A stretch of 34,647 nt of DNA from an uncultured Synechococcus sp. (lineage in GTDB: Bacteria; Cyanobacteriota; Cyanobacteriia; PCC-6307; Cyanobiaceae), in NCBI GenBank assembly GCA_913057985.1, contig CAJXPL010000028.1, positions 1 to 34,647 on the forward strand. Reading direction: 5' to 3'. Shown here piece by piece: positions 3,499 through 18,189 of the stretch (its first letter is position 1; every line of letters starts with the position of its first letter). A model generated the notes under the pieces. The model saw nothing but the letters and a program-made list of their open reading frames with translations, did no database searches and was not told where the DNA came from. Made by a program: the position numbers and the translations under genes.

Positions 3499-3539
3499 CG
3501 CTGGGCATAAGGAGATGCATTCGGAGCGTATCTCGTGGA

Positions 3540-8738: not shown

Positions 8739-10391
8739 ATGACCCCAGCGCTTCCGTGGTGGTCAGGGACGGTCATCTATCAGCTGATCGTTCGCAGCTA
8801 TTCCGATGGGAATGGCGATGGCACCGGTGATTTCAAGGGGCTTGCGGCGCGGTTGCCCTATCTGCGTTGGCTGGGGGTCAACACCCTCTGGTTGACCCCG
8901 ATCTATCCCTCCCCCCTGAGGGACGGGGGCTACGACATCACGGATTTCACCGGAATCCATCCGGACCTGGGGGATCTCTCCTCCTTCCACCGGTTCCTCA
9001 CGGCGGCCCACAGCCAGGGCATGCGCGTGATTTTGGACCTGGTGCTGAACCACACTAGTGACCTGCACCCCTGGTTCCAGCGGGCCCGCTGGGCTCCCAA
9101 GGGCAGTCCTGAACGGGATGTGTACGTCTGGAGCGACGACCCCAAGCGCTACGCCGAGGCACCGGTTCTGTTCCGGCATTTCGAGGCTTCCAACTGGGAG
9201 TGGGATCCGGTAGCCGAGCAGTACTACCTGCACCGTTTTCTGCGTCATCAGCCTGATCTCAATTACGAGAACCCCTGGGTGCAGGACACGATGCTGGAGG
9301 TGGTCGACTTCTGGCTGGATCGCGGCGTCGATGGGTTCCGCTTGGATGCGGTTCCGTTCTTGTTTGAGTCAGAGGGGACCCGCTGCGAGGGGTTGCCGGA
9401 AACCCATGCCTTCCTCAAGCGATTGCGGGAGCGGGTGGATGCCCATGGCCGTGATGTGCTCTTGCTGGGAGAGGCGATTCAGCCGGTGGAGGAGGCCGCT
9501 CCCTATCTGGCGGATGACGAACTGCATGGAGCGTTCAACTTCGTGCTCACCGCCCATCTGTTTGCCGCCATTGCCAGTGGCCGCACCCAGCAGCTCGGGG
9601 AGTGCCTGATCCAAGCCGAGCAGGCGGTATCTGGTCCTCGCTGGGCCCTGCCCCTGCGCAATCACGATGAACTCTGGTTGGGGGATGGCCATCTCATCAG
9701 CGATGACGTGATTCAGACCATCCGGGTGGGCCTGCCCCAGGGACAGGGGCACTGGTTGAACTGGGGCATCAACCGACGCTTGGCTCCTCTTCTCAATGGC
9801 GATCCACGCTCCAACCGGTTGCTGCACGGGCTCCTCTACAGCCTTCCGGGGATGCCCTGTCTGTATTACGGCGATGAACTGGGCATGGGCGACTGGCCCG
9901 GTCTGCGGGACCGTGATCCAAACCGCACGCCGATGGCCTGGACGCCAGCCCGCAACGGTGGCTTCTCCACGGCCCCCGATCCGCTGTTGGTGCTGCCCCC
10001 GATCACCGCTCCCGGCTACGACTACCGCGTGGTGAATGTGGAGGTGCAGAAGCAGCTGCCCGGGTCGCTGCTGAATTGGCACCGGCGCATGCTCACCTGC
10101 CGCCGCCTGCTGCCAGCACTGCGGCATGGAAGCTTCCGGTTGCTGCACAGCCCCCACCCTGGAGTGCTGGTCTATCTCCGCTGCACCGAGGCGATGACGG
10201 TGCTCGTGGCCGCCAATGTCACCGCTGCTGGAGCTTCGCTCAGTTTGGATCTGACGGAGTGGACCGGCGAGCGCACCCGTGAGGTGATGTGGGGATGTGA
10301 GTTCCCGCCTGCCGCAGCGGAGTGGTTCGTGAACCTTCCGCCCTATGGATTCAATTGGTGGTTGATCGGAGAGGTGGACGCTCAGTCCTAA
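8739..10391 (+). CDS. treS: Trehalose synthase (maltose isomerase, GH13)
   Basis: The enzyme most likely interconverts maltose and trehalose. It is a GH13 (beta/alpha)8 protein with region I VLNHTSD, nucleophile GVDGFRLDAVP, acid/base LLLGEA, and transition-state Asp in LRNHDEL. Several segments are TreS-like rather than general amylase: EGTRCEGLPETHAFLKR, INRRLAPLL and YYGDELGMGDWPGLRDRDPNRTPMAW. At 550 residues it is a stand-alone TreS without a fused maltokinase. An in-frame TGA at 8721 limits the start, so ATG 8739 is secure although its ribosome-binding site is poor. With glp genes and a second GH13 enzyme nearby, a role in osmolyte or glucan turnover is plausible. Confidence 0.88.
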   Translation: MTPALPWWSGTVIYQLIVRSYSDGNGDGTGDFKGLAARLPYLRWLGVNTLWLTPIYPSPLRDGGYDITDFTGIHPDLGDLSSFHRFLTAAHSQGMRVILDLVLNHTSDLHPWFQRARWAPKGSPERDVYVWSDDPKRYAEAPVLFRHFEASNWEWDPVAEQYYLHRFLRHQPDLNYENPWVQDTMLEVVDFWLDRGVDGFRLDAVPFLFESEGTRCEGLPETHAFLKRLRERVDAHGRDVLLLGEAIQPVEEAAPYLADDELHGAFNFVLTAHLFAAIASGRTQQLGECLIQAEQAVSGPRWALPLRNHDELWLGDGHLISDDVIQTIRVGLPQGQGHWLNWGINRRLAPLLNGDPRSNRLLHGLLYSLPGMPCLYYGDELGMGDWPGLRDRDPNRTPMAWTPARNGGFSTAPDPLLVLPPITAPGYDYRVVNVEVQKQLPGSLLNWHRRMLTCRRLLPALRHGSFRLLHSPHPGVLVYLRCTEAMTVLVAANVTAAGASLSLDLTEWTGERTREVMWGCEFPPAAAEWFVNLPPYGFNWWLIGEVDAQS

Positions 10392-10417
10392 GGCGATTGG
10401 AGTTGGATCGGCTTTTG

Positions 10418-10948
10418 TTAGGCAGACAAGCCGGTCATCAGCCCCGCCATCCCAGGTTGCTGGTGGAGGTCGCGACGTACCACAAGGCGCAGCGTTTCAG
10501 GCTCGTCCGTCAACGGGAGGCTGATGATGGCTTCGCTGCGGCCCAGGGCCTGCTCCTCAGAGGTGAGCCAGGCCTCGATCACCCGTTGTTCCAGCAAGGT
10601 TTCGAAGTGATCGGGCTCGCGGATCCGGGAGCTGCCAACGGTCCAGATCCTTGCGAGGTCTTGAGGTAGGGCGGTTTCAGGGCTGAAGGCCGCCTCCAGT
10701 CGAAGACCCCGCCCAAATTTCAGCCGCGCCGCCTGATGCACCCCCCGCTCCAACTGCAGGAGATGGCAGTCCCCCTCGATCTGCCAGAGACCATCGCGTT
10801 TCAGCATGTCGACCCCAAAGGCCTTCGCGCATTTCCGCTGATTTCTGCTGACGGTGGTTTGGTGCTGGAGCGTCAGAGCCCCAACCGCATTGCCTGACTG
10901 AAGCCAGATCAGACCGTCGAGACAGCAGAGCTGGTCGACCGTAACCAT
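10418..10948 (-). CDS. Unknown soluble protein
   Basis: The product is 176 residues, with no signal peptide, transmembrane helix or recognised motif. It has four cysteines in its N-terminal half (two adjacent near residues 8-9) and a mixed alpha/beta pattern ending in RLVVRRDLHQQPGMAGLMTGLSA. The ATG at 10948 is followed by a clean coding frame with normal codon use, and the gene runs in the same direction as, and 67 bases after, the split histidine kinase. It may be cotranscribed with that two-component system, but no function can be given. Confidence 0.7.
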   Translation of the reverse strand: MVTVDQLCCLDGLIWLQSGNAVGALTLQHQTTVSRNQRKCAKAFGVDMLKRDGLWQIEGDCHLLQLERGVHQAARLKFGRGLRLEAAFSPETALPQDLARIWTVGSSRIREPDHFETLLEQRVIEAWLTSEEQALGRSEAIISLPLTDEPETLRLVVRRDLHQQPGMAGLMTGLSA

Positions 10949-11015
10949 GCTGTTGGCCAGGATCTTCAGATCCTTCTAGCCAGCAGCGGTTCAGGCAATC
11001 CCCAGTTCTGGGGGG

Positions 11016-12356
11016 CTAGCCCTGTCTGGGGAGGAGCAGCACCGCGCGGGTGCCGCCGCTGGGGCTGAGGCCGAGCGTCAGTTCTCCGTTATGCCCCTCC
11101 ATCGCCGAGCGCACGATGAACAGTCCCAGGCCACTGCCGGAAGGCTTGCTGCTGTAGAGCGGCATGTCACCAGTGTGGTCGTCAGGCAGTCCGGGCCCGT
11201 TGTCGTCGAAAACGATCGCCCAATGCTGTTCTTGGCGTTCGAGTCGAATCACGATCTCCGGAGCAGCCGTGGTTGGAGGTTGATGCGACAGGGCATCCAC
11301 AGCATTCTTCACCAGATTGATCACGGCGATCTGGAGCTGGATGGCATCGCCCTCCACCCAGGGCTCCTGTCTCTTCAGCTCGGAGGGCAGAGAGGTCGTG
11401 ATCCAGCTGCTGGCTTCAATCAGGTTGGAGTTCACATACAGCTCAATGCTGTCCAGCACATCACGCAGATCGATCCGGCTCAGGCTGGTGTTCGCATTGC
11501 GGATGATCGCCTTCATCTGGTCGGTGGTCCGTGCGATCCGGCTGGCTTGATCGTCAAGGATCTGCAGGGCTTCCAGCAGTTCGACGGGATCGTCCGTTTC
11601 GGCACGCTCGCGTACTTGATGCTTTAAACGTTGTGCCGTCAGGCGCAGGATGCTCAGGGGTTGATTGATTTCGTGGGCGATGGCCGCGGCTTCAAGACTC
11701 ACCTTCAGCCGATCGTTCATCTGGGTCAGGGCTTGTTCATCCTGCAGGCGCTGCTCCTGAAACATCCGCGTGATCTGCTGCTCCTTGGCGGCGAGGTTCT
11801 GGGTGAGTTGATTGAAGGCCTTCACCATCGACTGAACCGCCACGTTCAGGTCCAGCAATTCCTGGCCGCTGTTCTGGTCCAGTTCACAGCGGTATTCCAA
11901 AGCCTGAGGCTGGGCATCTTCCAGCTGGTTGATTTGCTGTTCCGTGGTCTGGCTGGCCCGCTGCAGGGCGCTCAAAGGCTGAAGAATCCTGTTGATCAGG
12001 CTGCGGTTCAGCAGCAAGGTGAAGCCCAGAGCCAGCACGGCAGCGCCGACCTCAACGGCGAGTGTGAGTCCGGCTTGCGTCACCTCCGCGTTGGCACTGC
12101 TGGCGGTCAGCAAAATCCAGTCGAGACCGAGGTCGCTGCCCCATGGCGTCGACTGCAGCAGGAAGGCTCCGTCCTTGTGGCGCAGGAGTTGAGGCTGCGA
12201 TGCGTCTCCTGCCGTCTGTTGGATCCGGAGCAGCATCTCCGCCAAAGGGTGCTCCAGCTCGCTGAGGCTGCTGCGCTCGTTGCTTTCTCCTGTTGTTGTA
12301 AGGGGAATGCTTGGGTCTGAGCTGGCGATCAGACGTCCATCGGCTTCGACGAGCAA
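11016..12356 (-). CDS. Histidine kinase, C-terminal part after in-frame stop
   Basis: This is the downstream part of a membrane histidine kinase. In frame with the upstream part, it begins after TGA 12371-12369; a TTG at 12356 is the nearest conventional start. It holds the second half of a Cache-type sensor (LLVEADGRLIASSD), a transmembrane helix (about residues 96-118), a HAMP-like and coiled-coil linker, the H-box (AAAIAHEINQPLSIL, His about 228), N-box (NLVKNAVDAL), G1 (DDNGPGLPD) and G2 (GSGLGLFIV). All catalytic motifs look intact. If translated alone it would lack the first transmembrane helix and most of the sensor domain. Its fate depends on the nonsense codon described separately. 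Confidence 0.8.
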   Translation of the reverse strand: MLVEADGRLIASSDPSIPLTTTGESNERSSLSELEHPLAEMLLRIQQTAGDASQPQLLRHKDGAFLLQSTPWGSDLGLDWILLTASSANAEVTQAGLTLAVEVGAAVLALGFTLLLNRSLINRILQPLSALQRASQTTEQQINQLEDAQPQALEYRCELDQNSGQELLDLNVAVQSMVKAFNQLTQNLAAKEQQITRMFQEQRLQDEQALTQMNDRLKVSLEAAAIAHEINQPLSILRLTAQRLKHQVRERAETDDPVELLEALQILDDQASRIARTTDQMKAIIRNANTSLSRIDLRDVLDSIELYVNSNLIEASSWITTSLPSELKRQEPWVEGDAIQLQIAVINLVKNAVDALSHQPPTTAAPEIVIRLERQEQHWAIVFDDNGPGLPDDHTGDMPLYSSKPSGSGLGLFIVRSAMEGHNGELTLGLSPSGGTRAVLLLPRQG

Positions 12357-12368
12357 GGCCAGGCCATC

Positions 12369-12371
12369 TCA
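12369..12371 (-). other. In-frame TGA splitting the histidine kinase
   Basis: The codon TGA lies in the same reading frame as both flanking halves (11016-12368 and 12372-13070), which together make 684 sense codons. The protein reads HQVWGS, stop, DGLALLVEADGRLIAS, and the junction falls inside one Cache-like sensor domain. A single base change from CGA, GGA or TCA would explain it. No frameshift is needed. Confidence 0.9.
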
Positions 12372-13070
12372 GCTTCCCCACACCTGGTGGAGCCAGGTGC
12401 TGAGTTGGTTGATCACCATGTCCACGCCGATCACCCCCAGCAACTGGCCATCACCGTCAAGCAGGGGGGTGTTGAAAGAAACCGAATGAACCTCGGGCTG
12501 GTCTTCCCAGGCGTAGATGCTGCTCCAGCTCGAACGTCCGGCCGCAACGGTGTCGACGTACCAGGCTTCCTCGTGGGTGGCACTCATGCCGGTGATGACC
12601 TCGGTTGGCTCGAGGCGTTCCCCACGGGGTGAGAGGGAGAACACCGTCAATTGACCCCGCCCCAACCGTGTGCTGTCTTCGTAGAGCAGAACGTCACCAT
12701 CCGAGCCGCGCTCCAGACCCAGAAAGGAGCCATCTGGCGCGCCGTAATTGATGTAATCAACAGGGAAGGCCTTCAGCTGATGCCAGAACCGACGCCCCAG
12801 GGTGTCGAAGTTTTTCAACAGATTGGGCTGAGCATCAATGGCCGACGCATTGAGGTCATTGAGAAACATCGGAACCCGCAACTTGCCGCTCAGTTGCTCA
12901 CGGATCTCAGTGATCAAAAGATTGGTTCGGTGCCTTTCACTCTGCTGAATCCCGCTGTTCCGCCCCAGCGTGTAAGTCAACAGACTGAATGAACCTGCCA
13001 CCAGGATCAGTTGCAGTCCGGTGGACCGGACCAGCCGTTGCCCCAGGCTCAATGTGGAGTGCTGGCTCAT
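12369..13070 (-). CDS. Histidine kinase, N-terminal sensor part
   Basis: The 233-residue open frame encodes the first transmembrane helix (about residues 17-36) and most of a periplasmic dCache-like sensor. Typical features are the strand-rich YVDTVAAGRSSWSSIYAWED segment and the LLGVIGVDMVINQLSTWL end. It stops at the TGA inside the sensor, so alone it would be a membrane-anchored sensor fragment with no kinase domain. The ATG at 13070 overlaps the response-regulator stop by 4 bases (ATGA), showing cotranscription and coupling. Together with the frame downstream it forms a classical sensor kinase. Ligand unknown; Cache domains commonly bind small organic molecules. Confidence 0.85.
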   Translation of the reverse strand: MSQHSTLSLGQRLVRSTGLQLILVAGSFSLLTYTLGRNSGIQQSERHRTNLLITEIREQLSGKLRVPMFLNDLNASAIDAQPNLLKNFDTLGRRFWHQLKAFPVDYINYGAPDGSFLGLERGSDGDVLLYEDSTRLGRGQLTVFSLSPRGERLEPTEVITGMSATHEEAWYVDTVAAGRSSWSSIYAWEDQPEVHSVSFNTPLLDGDGQLLGVIGVDMVINQLSTWLHQVWGS

Positions 13071-13633
13071 GGGCGCGGATTGATCTGACGTGTCAGGGAT
13101 GCCTCTCGAATCAATTCAGCGCCGCTGAGCTTGAGTTTCTGGGTGATGGCCTTGCGGTGCGATTCGATCGTTGATGTGGCGCTGTTCAAAATGTGGGCGA
13201 TCTCCTTGGTGCTTTTGCCGGCACCAATGAGCTCGAAGATTTCGCTCTGGCGTGGCGTCAAACGTTGATGGGCTGGTTGCAGAATCGTGCTCAAGCTGTG
13301 GTGCAGTGCATCGAACGAATCACGCTTGTCGATCAGGGCATGGATTGATCCACGCAGTTCATGCGAAATCCTGAAGTCTTCCGGTTCTCCTGTCAGAACA
13401 ATGAGTCGAATTGAGGGATTGCGTTGGATAAGACGTTGTCCCAGTTCGCTGCCGTCACCATCTGGAAGATGCAGATCCAGGATGGCTAAATCCACCGGCA
13501 TATCCTTGCTGACGGTGATTGCTTGTGCGCACGTTGTGGCCTTCGAGACAGTCGAGATCTCGGAGAAAGCGTCCACGATGGTTGCCAGCAGATCCAGCAA
13601 AATTTGCTGATCTTCAACAACGAGGCAGTGCAA
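13067..13633 (-). CDS. NarL/LuxR-type response regulator
   Basis: This DNA-binding response regulator is partnered with the adjacent kinase. The receiver domain (residues 1-120) has the acidic pair Glu7-Asp8, phosphoacceptor Asp53 (AILDLHLPDGDG), Thr81 and Lys103. A LuxR-type helix-turn-helix follows from about 126 to 180 (LTPRQSEIFELIGAGKSTKEIA, then the recognition helix with TIESH). The total is 188 residues. The start is TTG at 13633, supported by GGAG at 13641-13644, 7 bases upstream, and by the conserved HCLVVEDQQ that follows. The gene begins 46 bases after glpD on the same strand, so glycerol-related control is possible but only inferred from position. Confidence 0.93.
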   Translation of the reverse strand: MHCLVVEDQQILLDLLATIVDAFSEISTVSKATTCAQAITVSKDMPVDLAILDLHLPDGDGSELGQRLIQRNPSIRLIVLTGEPEDFRISHELRGSIHALIDKRDSFDALHHSLSTILQPAHQRLTPRQSEIFELIGAGKSTKEIAHILNSATSTIESHRKAITQKLKLSGAELIREASLTRQINPRP

Positions 13634-13640
13634 GTGTTTT

Positions 13641-13644
13641 CTCC
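13641..13644 (-). promoter_or_regulatory. Ribosome-binding site that fixes a TTG start
   Basis: GGAG on the minus strand lies 7 bases before the TTG at 13633 of the response regulator. No ATG or GTG is available near the conserved N-terminus, so this site decides the start. Confidence 0.6.
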
Positions 13645-13679
13645 ACTGATGATCAAAACCTAGGCCGTCTAGTTCGCTT

Positions 13680-15209
13680 TTACATCTGTTCCAGTTCGTT
13701 GTTCACCAGAGGGCTTAGCCGCTCTGCCTCAGCTGCATCCACCATCGCGAGCCTGCAACGGCGGCTCAGAACATCATCGGAGCTGCTGGCGTGCTCCTTG
13801 TGGATGGCGTGCTGGATCTCGGCGCGGCAGATCGGGATCACGCTGCTCAGTGGTTCGCGTGCCTCCATCGGAGCCTTCGCCACCACCGCCTCGGCACCCA
13901 GTCCGAAGTTGTGCTGCAGATGCAGGATCTGTTGGGCTCGTTCGGGTGTGTCGGGCAGCAGGTCCTCGAGGGCCAAAGCTTGCTGCCGCAGTTCGGTGGT
14001 GGTGTGCTCGGGGTTGGCGGCTGTCCCGAGCAGCGGCAGGGATTGTGGCTTCGGCAGGGGTGCTGAAAGCTGGCGTTCCACCGCGGTCAGGGTGTCATCA
14101 GCCATCGGTCGGCAGGTGGTCCACTTGCCCCCCATCACGCTCACCAGGCCGCAGGCCAGCGTCTCCACCTCGTGCTCCCGCACCACACGGCTGCTGTCCA
14201 GGCCCTGGTCCGCTGGCTTCAGCAGCGGGCGTCCCCCCGCCCATCGGCTGCTCACCTTCGGATCCTGGAGCTGGGGAAACCAGTCACGCACGTAGTTGAG
14301 CAAGTAGGCCTCCTCCTCTGGAGAGGGGGATGTGGCGTTCTCCTTGCTGCAGGCTTCATCCGTCGTCCCCACCAGGGTGCGGCCGTGGAAGGGGAGCATG
14401 AACAGCACGCGTCCATCCGCAGTGGATGGCACCAGAAGCCCAACACCTTCCGGGCAGAGGTTCTGCTCCAGCACGATGTGGGCCCCACGGCTGGTGAGCA
14501 TCCGAGGAGGGGCTTCAGCCTCCGCCATCTGGCGGATCTCATCCGCCCGGATGCCCGTGGCATTCACAAACGCCGAGGCGCACCAGCGTTCCCGTTGGCC
14601 CGTGGCCGATTGACTGATGGCGGCCTTGAGCTGGCCCGTGCTGCCAGTCTCCAGCTCCACCACCCGGCAACGGGTGCGCAGGGTTGCCCCCCGTTGCTCG
14701 GCGGTGAGGGCCAAAAGCAGGTTGAGGCGTGCATCGTCGAACTGTCCGTCGCTGTAGGCCACGCCGCCCTGACACGCCTTCAGCAGAGGCAGGGCCTGAC
14801 GCATCTGCTGCTGGGACAGCAGTCGGCTGTGCCCGATGCTTCGTTGACCGGCCAGGGCGTCGTACACCCCCAGCCCAACTCGGTAGTAGGCCTGGCCCCA
14901 GAGCTGTTGAGTGGGCAGGGCCAGCTCCAGTCGTCGGGCCAGGAATGGTGCCTGGGTCAACCAGTGGCTCCGCTCGAGCAGTGCTTCCCGCACCAGCCTC
15001 AGCTGGGCCAGGTCCAGAGTTTTAAAGGCCAGCTCCAGGTAGCGCACCCCGCCATGGAGCAGCTTCGTGCTGCGGCAACTGGTGCCACCGCCGATGTCTC
15101 CGGCCTCGAGCAGGGCCACGCTCAGCCCCCGTCGTGTTGCTTCATAGGCCACGCTGGCACCGCTGGCGCCGGCGCCGATGACCAGCAGGTCAACCTGGTG
15201 ATCAGCCAT
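13680..15209 (-). CDS. glpD: Glycerol-3-phosphate dehydrogenase (FAD)
   Basis: GlpD is a membrane-associated flavoenzyme that oxidises sn-glycerol-3-phosphate to dihydroxyacetone phosphate and passes electrons to quinone. The N-terminal FAD-binding motif is clear (DLLVIGAGASGASVAYEATRRG), followed by GGTSCRSTKLLHGGVRYLE, typical of GlpD. A later GTTDE and a C-terminal glycine/serine-rich GKWTTCRPMADD segment also fit. Starting at ATG 15209 gives 509 residues; the frame is open to 15275, but that extension lies inside glpK. The start overlaps the glpK stop by 8 bases (ATGGCTGA), so glpK and glpD are translationally coupled. In cyanobacteria this pair feeds or drains the glycerol-3-phosphate pool used for lipids and glucosylglycerol. 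Confidence 0.96.
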   Translation of the reverse strand: MADHQVDLLVIGAGASGASVAYEATRRGLSVALLEAGDIGGGTSCRSTKLLHGGVRYLELAFKTLDLAQLRLVREALLERSHWLTQAPFLARRLELALPTQQLWGQAYYRVGLGVYDALAGQRSIGHSRLLSQQQMRQALPLLKACQGGVAYSDGQFDDARLNLLLALTAEQRGATLRTRCRVVELETGSTGQLKAAISQSATGQRERWCASAFVNATGIRADEIRQMAEAEAPPRMLTSRGAHIVLEQNLCPEGVGLLVPSTADGRVLFMLPFHGRTLVGTTDEACSKENATSPSPEEEAYLLNYVRDWFPQLQDPKVSSRWAGGRPLLKPADQGLDSSRVVREHEVETLACGLVSVMGGKWTTCRPMADDTLTAVERQLSAPLPKPQSLPLLGTAANPEHTTTELRQQALALEDLLPDTPERAQQILHLQHNFGLGAEAVVAKAPMEAREPLSSVIPICRAEIQHAIHKEHASSSDDVLSRRCRLAMVDAAEAERLSPLVNNELEQM

Positions 15210-16707
15210 GCCACCCCAGGCTTCTGGAGACGGCGTCCTGCCAGCGTGAGCGCCACCTGTGGCGCTCGGATGCATCCATCTGTGGGTGGAACAGTTCCGC
15301 GCCGTCTCTCCGTGCGGTTGCGAGCTGCTCCAGGTCGCTGATCGCCCCAGCCTGAAGGCCTGCGAACAGCGCCACCCCCCGGGCGGTGCTCTCGAGGCTG
15401 GCGGGACGCCGCACCGTCAGACCGGTGCAATCGGCCTGTGCCTGCAGCAGAGGATCCGAGGCCGCGGCGCCACCATCCACCGCCAGTTCACCCAGGCCCG
15501 TGCCGAGGGCCTGCTCGGCAAGTTCCACCAAGGTCGCCACCGACAGGGCGATTCCCTCCAGCGCTGCTCGGGCGATGTGACCGCGTCCGCTGTCGCGGGT
15601 GAGGCCCACCAGAACGCCGCGTGCCTGGGGATCCCAGTGCGGTGTTCCCCAGCCGGTGAAGGCGGGCACGAGCATCACCCCTCCCGAATCCGGCACCGAA
15701 CGCGCCAGTTCGTTCACCTGAGGGGCCTGATCAATGATCTGCAGCCCATCCCGCAGCCACTGGATCACGGTGCCGGCGTTGAACAGACTTCCCTCCAGGC
15801 AGAAGCTGGGTCTTCCGGCGGCATCGGTCCAGCCGAGGGTGCTGAGCAGCCCCGCATCCGAGCGGCGGATGACGTCACCGGTGTTGATCACCAGAAAGGC
15901 TCCCGTGCCGTAGGTGCACTTGCCTTCTCCGGGCTGCAGACAGAGCTGGCCCAGGGTGGCGGCCTGTTGGTCGCCAAGCATCGCCTGGATCGGTAGGCCT
16001 GCGAAGGGAAGATCCGTAGTGATGTGCCCGAACTCCCCGCGGCAGGGCAGCAGTTCGGGCAGAGCGTTGGCCGGGAGCCCTGTGGGCTCTCGGAAGTCAT
16101 CCACCCAGCGCTGCTGCTCCAGGTCCATCAGCAGTGTTCGGCTGGCATTGCTCATGTCACTGCCGTGGCGCTGCCCGCCGGTGAGTTGCCAGAGCAGCCA
16201 GCTCTCCACTGTTCCGAAACAGAGGTCATCGCTGGCTGCGGCAGCCTGGGCGTCCTGGTAGTGATCGAGCATCCAGCGGATCTTGCTGGCACTGAAGTAG
16301 GGGTCGAGCAGCAAACCGGTGCGCCGGCACCACTCCTGCTCCAGTCCCTGCTGCTTCCAGTCCTCGCAGATTGCGGCGGTGCGGCCGTCTTGCCAGACGA
16401 GGGCCGGGCCACAGGGGAGTCCATTGCTGCGGCGCCAGAGCACGGTGGTTTCCCGTTGGTTGGTGATGCCGCAGCTCACCACTGCCTTGCGCTGTGCATC
16501 GCTGAGCTTCGAATCGAGCTGCACCAGGGCCTGCCGCTGGCTGGTCCAGATCGCCATCGGGTCCTGTTCCACCCATCCATCGGCGGGGTAGGAAATCGGC
16601 AGCGGCGCACTGGCGCTGATCACCAGATCTCCGGAGCTGCTGAAAAGCGCGGCTCTGGAGCTGCTGGTGCCCTGATCGAGGGCCAGAAGAAGAGGCTGCT
16701 CAGCCAT
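15202..16707 (-). CDS. glpK: Glycerol kinase
   Basis: GlpK phosphorylates glycerol to glycerol-3-phosphate with ATP. It is a FGGY-family kinase. The N-terminal phosphate motif is LALDQGTSSSRAALF; CGITNQRETTVLWRR and the DQQAATLGQ region follow, and the C-terminal half has ELAVDGGAAASDPLLQAQAD, the adenosine-binding part. ATG at 16707 gives 501 residues. A TTG at 16713 is also possible and sits 9 bases after an AGGAG (16723-16727), the better ribosome-binding spacing, so two extra residues are plausible. It is divergent from the GH13 glycosidase gene and overlaps glpD. No glycerol facilitator gene is nearby. Confidence 0.96.
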   Translation of the reverse strand: MAEQPLLLALDQGTSSSRAALFSSSGDLVISASAPLPISYPADGWVEQDPMAIWTSQRQALVQLDSKLSDAQRKAVVSCGITNQRETTVLWRRSNGLPCGPALVWQDGRTAAICEDWKQQGLEQEWCRRTGLLLDPYFSASKIRWMLDHYQDAQAAAASDDLCFGTVESWLLWQLTGGQRHGSDMSNASRTLLMDLEQQRWVDDFREPTGLPANALPELLPCRGEFGHITTDLPFAGLPIQAMLGDQQAATLGQLCLQPGEGKCTYGTGAFLVINTGDVIRRSDAGLLSTLGWTDAAGRPSFCLEGSLFNAGTVIQWLRDGLQIIDQAPQVNELARSVPDSGGVMLVPAFTGWGTPHWDPQARGVLVGLTRDSGRGHIARAALEGIALSVATLVELAEQALGTGLGELAVDGGAAASDPLLQAQADCTGLTVRRPASLESTARGVALFAGLQAGAISDLEQLATARRDGAELFHPQMDASERHRWRSRWQDAVSRSLGWHG

Positions 16708-16721
16708 GGCCAATGTCTTTC

Positions 16722-16740
16722 TCTCCTGCTAGCCAGGAGA
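16722..16740. repeat. Inverted repeat between glpK and GH13 gene
   Basis: Seven-base arms TCTCCTG and CAGGAGA flank a 5-base spacer. Each arm also contains the AGGAG ribosome-binding sequence of one of the two divergent genes, so the symmetry may simply reflect back-to-back ribosome-binding sites. An operator for a dimeric regulator is the alternative. Confidence 0.5.
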
Positions 16741-16758
16741 TGGCTGACTGCAAAGGCT

Positions 16759-18189
16759 TTGCCAGCGACCACTCCGTTTCGTGATCCCCCTGCCTGGGTG
16801 GCTGATGCGGTGCTCTACCAGATCTTTCCCGACCGTTTTCGCCGCAGTGGGAGGGTTGATGCGCAGCGCCATCTCACCCTGAAGCCATGGGGGACGGACC
16901 CTCGCGAGGAGGGATTCCAGGGCGGGGATCTCTACGGCGTCATCGATGCTCTCGATGGGCTTCAAGCCATGGGCATCACCTGCCTTTATCTCACGCCGAT
17001 CTTCAGTTCACCCGCCAACCATCGCTACCACGCCTACGACTACTTCGAGGTGGACCCTCTGCTGGGGGGCAATGCAGCACTCAGGGATCTGATCGATGCC
17101 GTGCATCGGCGCGGCATGAAGTTGGTTCTCGATGGGGTGTTCAACCACTGCGGCCGCGGCTTTTGGGCCTTTCATCACGTGGTGGAGAACGGTGCGGATT
17201 CGCCCTACCGGGACTGGTTCCATCTGCACCGGTGGCCCCTGCAGCCCTATCCCGCCCCAGGCGAGGACTGCGGTTACGACGGCTGGTGGGCCTTGCCGGA
17301 TCTGCCCAAGTTCAACCATGCCAATCCAGGGGTTCGGGAGCACCTTCTGGCGGTGGGCCGTCATTGGCTCGAGCAGGGCATTGATGGCTGGCGTCTTGAC
17401 GTTCCTGCCGAGGTCCCGGCCGACTTCTGGGTGGAGTTTCGGCAGATGGTGCGGTCCACCAACCCGGAGGCTTGGATTGTCGGAGAGGTGTGGGGTGATG
17501 CCACCGCCTGGCTGCAGGGGGACCACTTCGATGGCGTGATGAATTACCGGCTGGGTTGGAGCAGCATCTGCTGGGCCGCCGGGGAAGCGTTGCGGCGGGA
17601 CTACCGCAATTCCGAATACCCGCTCGATCCCCTGGATGGCCAGGCTTTGTTGACCATCTGGACGACCACAACGGGTTCCTACCGGGAGGTGGTGAACAGG
17701 TCGCAGATGAACCTGCTCGACAGCCATGACGTGCCACGGGCCCTTCACAGCCTCAACAACGACCTGGCGGCCCTGAAGTTGGCCCTGCTGCTGCTCTTCC
17801 TCCATCCAGGGGCACCCTGCGTTTATTACGGGACCGAAGCTGCTCTGGCGGGTGGCCCTGAGCCGGGCCCTTCCAGCGGTCCCGGACCGGCCTGTCGTGA
17901 GGCCTATCCCTGGGATGTCCCCTGGTCCGCTGATCTCCGCTCCTTCATTCAATCCCTCGCAGAACTCCGCCGTGCCCATGGGGTCTTGCGCAGGGATGGC
18001 CTGCGCTGGTCAGCCCAAGGGGCGGACGTGCTCGAGGGCGTTTCGGATGGCCTGCGGGTTGTGATCAACCGCAGTCGCTTCAACTCCGTGCCTTTAACAA
18101 TCGAGCCTGGAAGGTCCTGTGTCTGGACGCTGGGGACGGTCGAAAATCGTGCTGTTGGACCGCAATCGGCGGCTGTTCTGGAGTCCTAA
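16759..18189 (+). CDS. GH13 glycosidase (maltodextrin/neopullulanase-like)
   Basis: This alpha-glucan-active GH13 enzyme probably hydrolyses maltodextrins or cyclodextrins in the cytosol. The core begins DAVLYQIFPDRF, then GGDLYGVIDALDGLQAMGI, region I DGVFNHCGRG, nucleophile GIDGWRLDVPAE, acid/base WIVGEVWGD, and the third catalytic Asp in NLLDSHDVPR. The FPDRF start and YDGWWALPDLPKFNH block are typical of the neopullulanase/MalZ-type group, but the long N-terminal accessory domain of those enzymes is missing. TTG at 16759 gives 476 residues; an ATG at 16740 is out of frame and soon stops. The frame is open far upstream to 16024, but only as an antisense shadow of glpK. Substrate unsettled. 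Confidence 0.88.
   Translation: MPATTPFRDPPAWVADAVLYQIFPDRFRRSGRVDAQRHLTLKPWGTDPREEGFQGGDLYGVIDALDGLQAMGITCLYLTPIFSSPANHRYHAYDYFEVDPLLGGNAALRDLIDAVHRRGMKLVLDGVFNHCGRGFWAFHHVVENGADSPYRDWFHLHRWPLQPYPAPGEDCGYDGWWALPDLPKFNHANPGVREHLLAVGRHWLEQGIDGWRLDVPAEVPADFWVEFRQMVRSTNPEAWIVGEVWGDATAWLQGDHFDGVMNYRLGWSSICWAAGEALRRDYRNSEYPLDPLDGQALLTIWTTTTGSYREVVNRSQMNLLDSHDVPRALHSLNNDLAALKLALLLLFLHPGAPCVYYGTEAALAGGPEPGPSSGPGPACREAYPWDVPWSADLRSFIQSLAELRRAHGVLRRDGLRWSAQGADVLEGVSDGLRVVINRSRFNSVPLTIEPGRSCVWTLGTVENRAVGPQSAAVLES

Follow-up and report, generated by a model that had tools for sequence, protein, structure and literature searches.

A sensor histidine kinase gene of an uncultured Synechococcus sp. has probably become an ordinary loss-of-function allele, through a single C-to-T change on this lineage that turned an arginine codon (CGA) into TGA. 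The window analyzed here is a stretch of 34,647 nucleotides (assembly GCA_913057985.1, contig CAJXPL010000028.1). The gene and its parts are as follows.

11016 to 13070, minus strand: histidine kinase frame of 684 codons plus stop, with one interruption (translation through the TGA; HisKA and HATPase_c pass the Pfam cut-offs)
12372 to 13070, minus strand: part before the stop, 233 residues, with a hydrophobic helix at the N terminus and the beginning of a Cache sensor (open reading frame, Pfam, structure model)
12369 to 12371, minus strand: in-frame TGA, codon 234; CGA in the relatives G024 and L009 (sequence, ortholog alignment)
12354 to 12356, minus strand: TTG at codon 239, proposed earlier as a restart; weak pairing, GTG in G024
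11016 to 12368, minus strand: part after the stop, with the remaining sensor, a HAMP-like stretch (below cut-off), HisKA, and HATPase_c (open reading frame, Pfam)

We propose that CGA changed to TGA after the split from the closest relative, G024. Translation would then end after 233 residues, and the product would consist of an N-terminal membrane helix, predicted from a hydrophobic stretch, plus the beginning of the Cache sensor. Only leakage would yield the remaining sensor, the second membrane helix, the HAMP stretch, the phospho-accepting histidine, and the ATPase domain, and an intact LuxR-type response regulator would be left without its kinase. We infer that the stop is real rather than a consensus error and, judging from the sequence, that the kinase protein is inactive; the allele is most likely a null.

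An in-frame TGA interrupts a sensor kinase frame

The open reading frame at 12369 to 13070 encodes 233 amino acids, and the same frame stays open past the TGA to 11016. As the preliminary description had stated, the two halves share one frame, and translation through the TGA gives 684 residues. G024 carries this frame, 97% identical, with no stop, and it is open in all other listed matches as well, so its continuity here goes beyond chance. The kinase motifs were also correctly described as intact: on the read-through frame, and only there, HisKA (residues 460 to 519) and HATPase_c (residues 574 to 683) score above the Pfam cut-offs. The same read-through frame contains a dCache_1 stretch at residues 166 to 255 with an E value of 1.4e-9, although its 38.3 bits fall below the gathering score of 45. 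The domain set of a dCache sensor histidine kinase (Cache, HisKA, HATPase_c) is thus present on the read-through frame only, with Cache below its gathering score. Codon 234 falls within the dCache stretch, which bears out the claim that the stop cuts the sensor domain. In a structure model of the ortholog L009, residue 234 lies in a short loop between a helix (221 to 231) and a strand (236 to 242) of the sensor. This model is weak overall (mean pLDDT of 63.2, pTM of 0.41) and was used only for placing residue 234; the block from 231 to 240 has a pLDDT of 78.

Among the genomes compared, the stop is found in this one alone

The nearest relative found, G024, matches the window in one collinear alignment of 34,109 columns with 96.6% DNA identity and 4 gap columns. 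Codon 234 was aligned across 10 orthologous loci. It is CGA in L004 (the G024 locus), L009 (a metagenome-assembled genome), and L015, CGC in L005, L007, L012, and L014, CGT in L006, GAG in L008, and CAA in L013. The two nearest sequences, G024 and L009, therefore both have CGA, and the eight further loci have codons for Arg, Glu, or Gln. The preliminary description had named a TGA carried by all orthologs as an argument against recent decay; TGA occurs in none of those examined. Kinase matches at an E value of ≤1e-60 occur in 6 of 34 genus genomes, with the stop in this genome alone and the frame open in the other five. Across the family, 39 of 300 genomes have a match, and again only this genome has a stop within it (38 of 38 others open); two genomes are common to the five others of the genus list and the 38 others of the family list. 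Over 39 loci, in which two genomes are counted twice, residue 234 is Arg in 26, Gln in 6, Asn in 2, and Glu, Asp, Lys, His, or Thr in 1 each. Neither Trp nor Cys occurs at this residue in any of the 39 loci, which rules out Trp as the ancestral residue.

The absence of a stop from the relatives, together with CGA in the nearest two, indicates a single C-to-T transition on the branch of this genome. As is typical of a pseudogene, the stop is absent from the orthologs and lies one step from their codon. The suggestion of a recent inactivating mutation, one of several offered at first, is the one that these comparisons favor.

Assembly error and other broken genes

A single base decides between a broken and a whole gene, and the assembly consensus could be wrong at this base, in which case the strain has CGA and an intact kinase. 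Two more lesions in the 234.6-kb sample described below could be errors as well, and the branch still shows constraint (see below). Against this, the change is a substitution outside any long homopolymer, and the comparison of the window contig with G024 (4 gap columns in 34,109) revealed no other broken gene among the 24 compared. We consider a consensus error unlikely.

To put the lesion in context, each of 125 open reading frames of G024 was checked against this genome, and each of 123 in the reverse direction, over three contig pieces totaling 234.6 kb. The census covered frames that were aligned over at least 95% and showed third-position periodicity. Ten of the 125 G024 frames were flagged as broken in this genome and 3 were kept, namely the kinase, a gene with a TAG, and a gene with a 58-base deletion; in the other direction 5 of 123 were flagged and 1, with a one-base insertion, was kept. 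The 11 remaining cases were dropped by eye: 10 of them had their stop or shift within or close to an N terminus presumed to be over-extended (in one, at codon 124 of 610, before the recognizable protein begins), and the last was the tail of a gene broken in G024. Close inspection covered 13 of the 15 flagged cases; of the other two, the kinase was already known, and the second, which has stops at codons 17 and 29 of its 316, was assessed from the comparison output alone. The counts of 3 of 125 and 1 of 123 do not differ reliably. With two further broken genes here and one in G024, the kinase lesion is not exceptional.

The TAG replaces a TGG of G024 at codon 301 of a 402-codon gene (G000:C1:85717-85719, minus strand, within L103; G000 is the present genome). 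The 58-base deletion relative to G024 lies at about 3515 to 3520 of G000:C2, within L104, and breaks a 600-codon ABC-transporter-like gene; identity to G024 is 100% over its first 178 residues and 94% over the remainder. In G024, a one-base G insertion in a run of G (L121, about 11380 to 11400; G024:C1, about 656390) breaks a transporter-like gene that is open in G000. This insertion may be a mutation or an error; G024 is a single-contig genome.

Restart of translation after the stop

A second alternative is a real split, in which translation restarts past the stop and yields a sensor-less kinase that is still active. HisKA and HATPase_c do stay open, but the restart proposed in the preliminary description, TTG 12356, is disfavored. 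This TTG arose on the present branch (G024 has GTG and L009 a Val codon), and a protein begun there would be missing the N-terminal helix and half of the sensor. Shine-Dalgarno pairing at this codon is weak, -3.6 kcal/mol, compared with -6.4 for the start of the response regulator and -7.4 for that of glpK. Replacement of a GTG by TTG is the opposite of what selection for a start would produce. Other in-frame candidates pair like the neighboring genes (GTG codon 345, -6.8; ATG 415, -6.0; ATG 436, -6.1 kcal/mol; spacing unscored); starts there would produce kinases that lack most or all of the sensor. No pairing is seen at the native kinase start (+0.4 kcal/mol), as fits its overlap with the upstream gene; the locus can evidently do without pairing, and a weak value by itself does not settle the matter. 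The part after the stop also has the higher ratio of nonsynonymous to synonymous changes (12:9, against 3:6 before it), which speaks against this reading, though the same holds in most other pairs of sequences. On balance, an active split kinase is highly improbable.

UGA readthrough and recoding

The stop might also leak: tRNA-Trp would read UGA at a low rate, and the little full-length kinase made in this way would suffice for function. UGA is the most leaky of the stop codons, with readthrough of 0.001 to 0.01 or more reported in Escherichia coli and Salmonella (PMC4989110). Orthologs differ at residue 234 (R, Q, N, E, D, K, H, T), and the modest structure model places it in a loop; the protein may therefore accept a different residue at this point. 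The genome has one tRNA-Trp gene (CCA), at positions 1501 to 1577 of L134 (G000:C6:21280-21356), which by hand numbering from the drawing appears to carry A24, the base produced by the Hirsh mutation G24A of the E. coli UGA suppressor (PMC13092985). On the other side, Trp is found at the position in none of the 39 loci, the relatives all lack a stop, and the anticodon stem of this tRNA has 5 bp; in E. coli, increased readthrough of UGA is reported for a 4-bp stem (PMC13092985). The gene has a full-length match of 97 to 100%, a figure for the gene as a whole, in 30 of the 33 other genus genomes, and this tRNA is therefore not a special adaptation of the present genome. We regard functional leakage as very unlikely. 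A stronger form, in which the tRNA-Trp of the genus, with its apparent A24, reads UGA at a few percent, the kinase dose is far below that of the regulator, and the frame remains under selection, is likewise very unlikely.

No sign of programmed recoding was found in the sequence. No special suppressor tRNA was found: neither a UCA anticodon among the 37 tRNA genes found in the draft genome nor a 4-bp tRNA-Trp stem was present; tRNA-Ile(GAT) is missing among the 37, so the tRNA set is incomplete and a gene could have escaped it. A search of the draft assembly for tRNA-Sec gave nothing above the cut-off (best, 46.5 bits versus 47); ARAGORN identifies the best candidate as a tRNA-Ser, and ordinary tRNAs lie at the other nine places. 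Selenocysteine is ruled out by this result and by the absence of both TGA and Cys from all 39 orthologous loci. A changed genetic code is likewise ruled out, since TGA ends 92 of the 120 nonoverlapping open reading frames of at least 250 amino acids in the sample.

Selection and age of the stop

Changes on the two branches were counted as nonsynonymous to synonymous (N:S), omitting ambiguous sites (2 N and 7 S with the G022 outgroup) and the stop codon. With G022 as the outgroup, the branch of this genome has the counts after and before the stop given above, and the G024 branch has 4:10 after the stop position and 0:4 before it. With L009 as the outgroup, the counts are 12:12 and 3:5 on this branch and 4:10 and 0:7 on the G024 branch. 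The whole gene has 15:15 on this branch versus 4:14 on the G024 branch (P = 0.073), and versus 107:236 for the other window genes on the same branch (P = 0.043, uncorrected); those other genes have 102:279 on the G024 branch. Amino acid changes in the kinase thus appear mildly raised on this branch.

The whole-gene N:S nevertheless lies under the neutral expectation (P = 0.003 to 0.024 for kappa of 1 to 4), suggesting constraint on the gene that lasted through much of the branch or continues. For the post-stop part alone, neutrality is not rejected with the G022 outgroup (P = 0.06 to 0.18) and is rejected with the L009 outgroup (P = 0.008 to 0.043). Among six sequences, dN/dS is higher in the second part of the gene for 14 of the 15 pairs, with G022-G027 as the exception, so the excess after the stop is partly a regional property. 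The stop is probably young relative to the G024 split, or some function is left.

Gene neighborhood

The neighboring genes that bear on the role of the kinase are listed here.

10418 to 10948, minus strand: u176, a conserved 176-residue protein downstream of the kinase (conservation)
13067 to 13633, minus strand: response regulator, intact, with receiver and GerE/LuxR-type DNA-binding domains (Pfam; 97% identical in G024)
13680 to 15209, minus strand: glpD-like FAD-dependent glycerol-3-phosphate dehydrogenase (NCBIfam below cut-offs, Pfam DAO above); taken from the likely start, the longest open reading frame reaching 15275
15202 to 16713, minus strand: glycerol kinase, glpK (NF000756 above cut-off, FGGY domains)

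These genes form a same-strand string in the order glpK, glpD, response regulator, kinase, u176. The stop codon of the response regulator overlaps the ATG of the kinase. The regulator had been called intact from the outset, and its domains and its identity to G024 confirm this. The six genus genomes (of 34) with the regulator are also those with the kinase, some of the genomes without a match being incomplete; of the 19 genomes with completeness of 90% or more and contamination of 5% or less, 3 have both. Six strong u176 matches fall in the same six genomes as the pair, and weaker matches occur in six more. The glpD-like gene is present in 32 of 34 genus genomes. The order glpD, regulator, kinase, u176 recurs in L004 to L011 (eight loci, six sequences), and regulator and kinase stand together in all 31 loci from L012 to L042, with u176 nearby in part; glpD was not detected near these 31 loci within flanks of about 1.5 to 4 kb. 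The regulator and kinase are presumably partners, and the two-component system may act on the neighboring glycerol genes, in glycerol or glucosylglycerol metabolism. In some cyanobacteria glpK and glpD lie beside glucosylglycerol genes, as a review notes (PMC6753628). A scan of positions 10300 to 17000 found no promoter-like site, and terminators were at the level of shuffled sequence.

The u176 protein matches no Pfam family up to an E value of 5, and by eye its N terminus is helix-turn-helix-like. Its differences between G000 and G024 are mostly amino acid changes (dN/dS of 0.71, 11 N to 5 S). TGAs that appeared inside glpD in many genomes fall at query residues 16 and 20 only (25 loci of 32 matches); they precede the likely true start at residue 23 and are an artifact of an over-long query.

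Comparison with known systems

Here a two-component module that is patchily distributed and sits next to glycerol genes has probably lost its kinase recently. Open-ocean clades of Synechococcus were reported to have few regulatory systems in a comparison from 2008 (PMC2441476); a kinase gene whose frame broke only a short time ago would show one such loss in its early stage. Our literature search met no report on this locus, which is not proof that it is unreported.

The gene resembles dCache kinases that accompany a LuxR-type regulator in having dCache_1 (below the gathering score), HisKA, and HATPase_c on the read-through frame; it differs in that the frame is interrupted. The predicted fold of the kinase model matches solved kinases such as HK853 and the ligand-binding domains of the amino acid chemoreceptors PctA and Mlp24. 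With selenoprotein and other UGA-recoded genes it shares an in-frame TGA within an otherwise open frame, but its relatives have neither TGA nor Cys at the position, and tRNA-Sec scores stay below the cut-off.

Parallels are also found among nonsense or frameshift alleles of cyanobacterial sensor kinases, namely a hik43 allele with TGG changed to TGA in evolved Synechocystis (PMC5738210) and a truncated sasA in evolved Synechococcus elongatus (PMC12435244). The likeness is that of a histidine kinase gene stopped early, by one base change in the case of the one hik43 allele. Those alleles came out of evolution experiments and are confirmed, with loss of function shown or argued; the present allele affects another kinase, and its loss of function is a prediction. 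No new mechanism is needed to account for it, and it is probably an ordinary nonsense allele, recent and inactivating.
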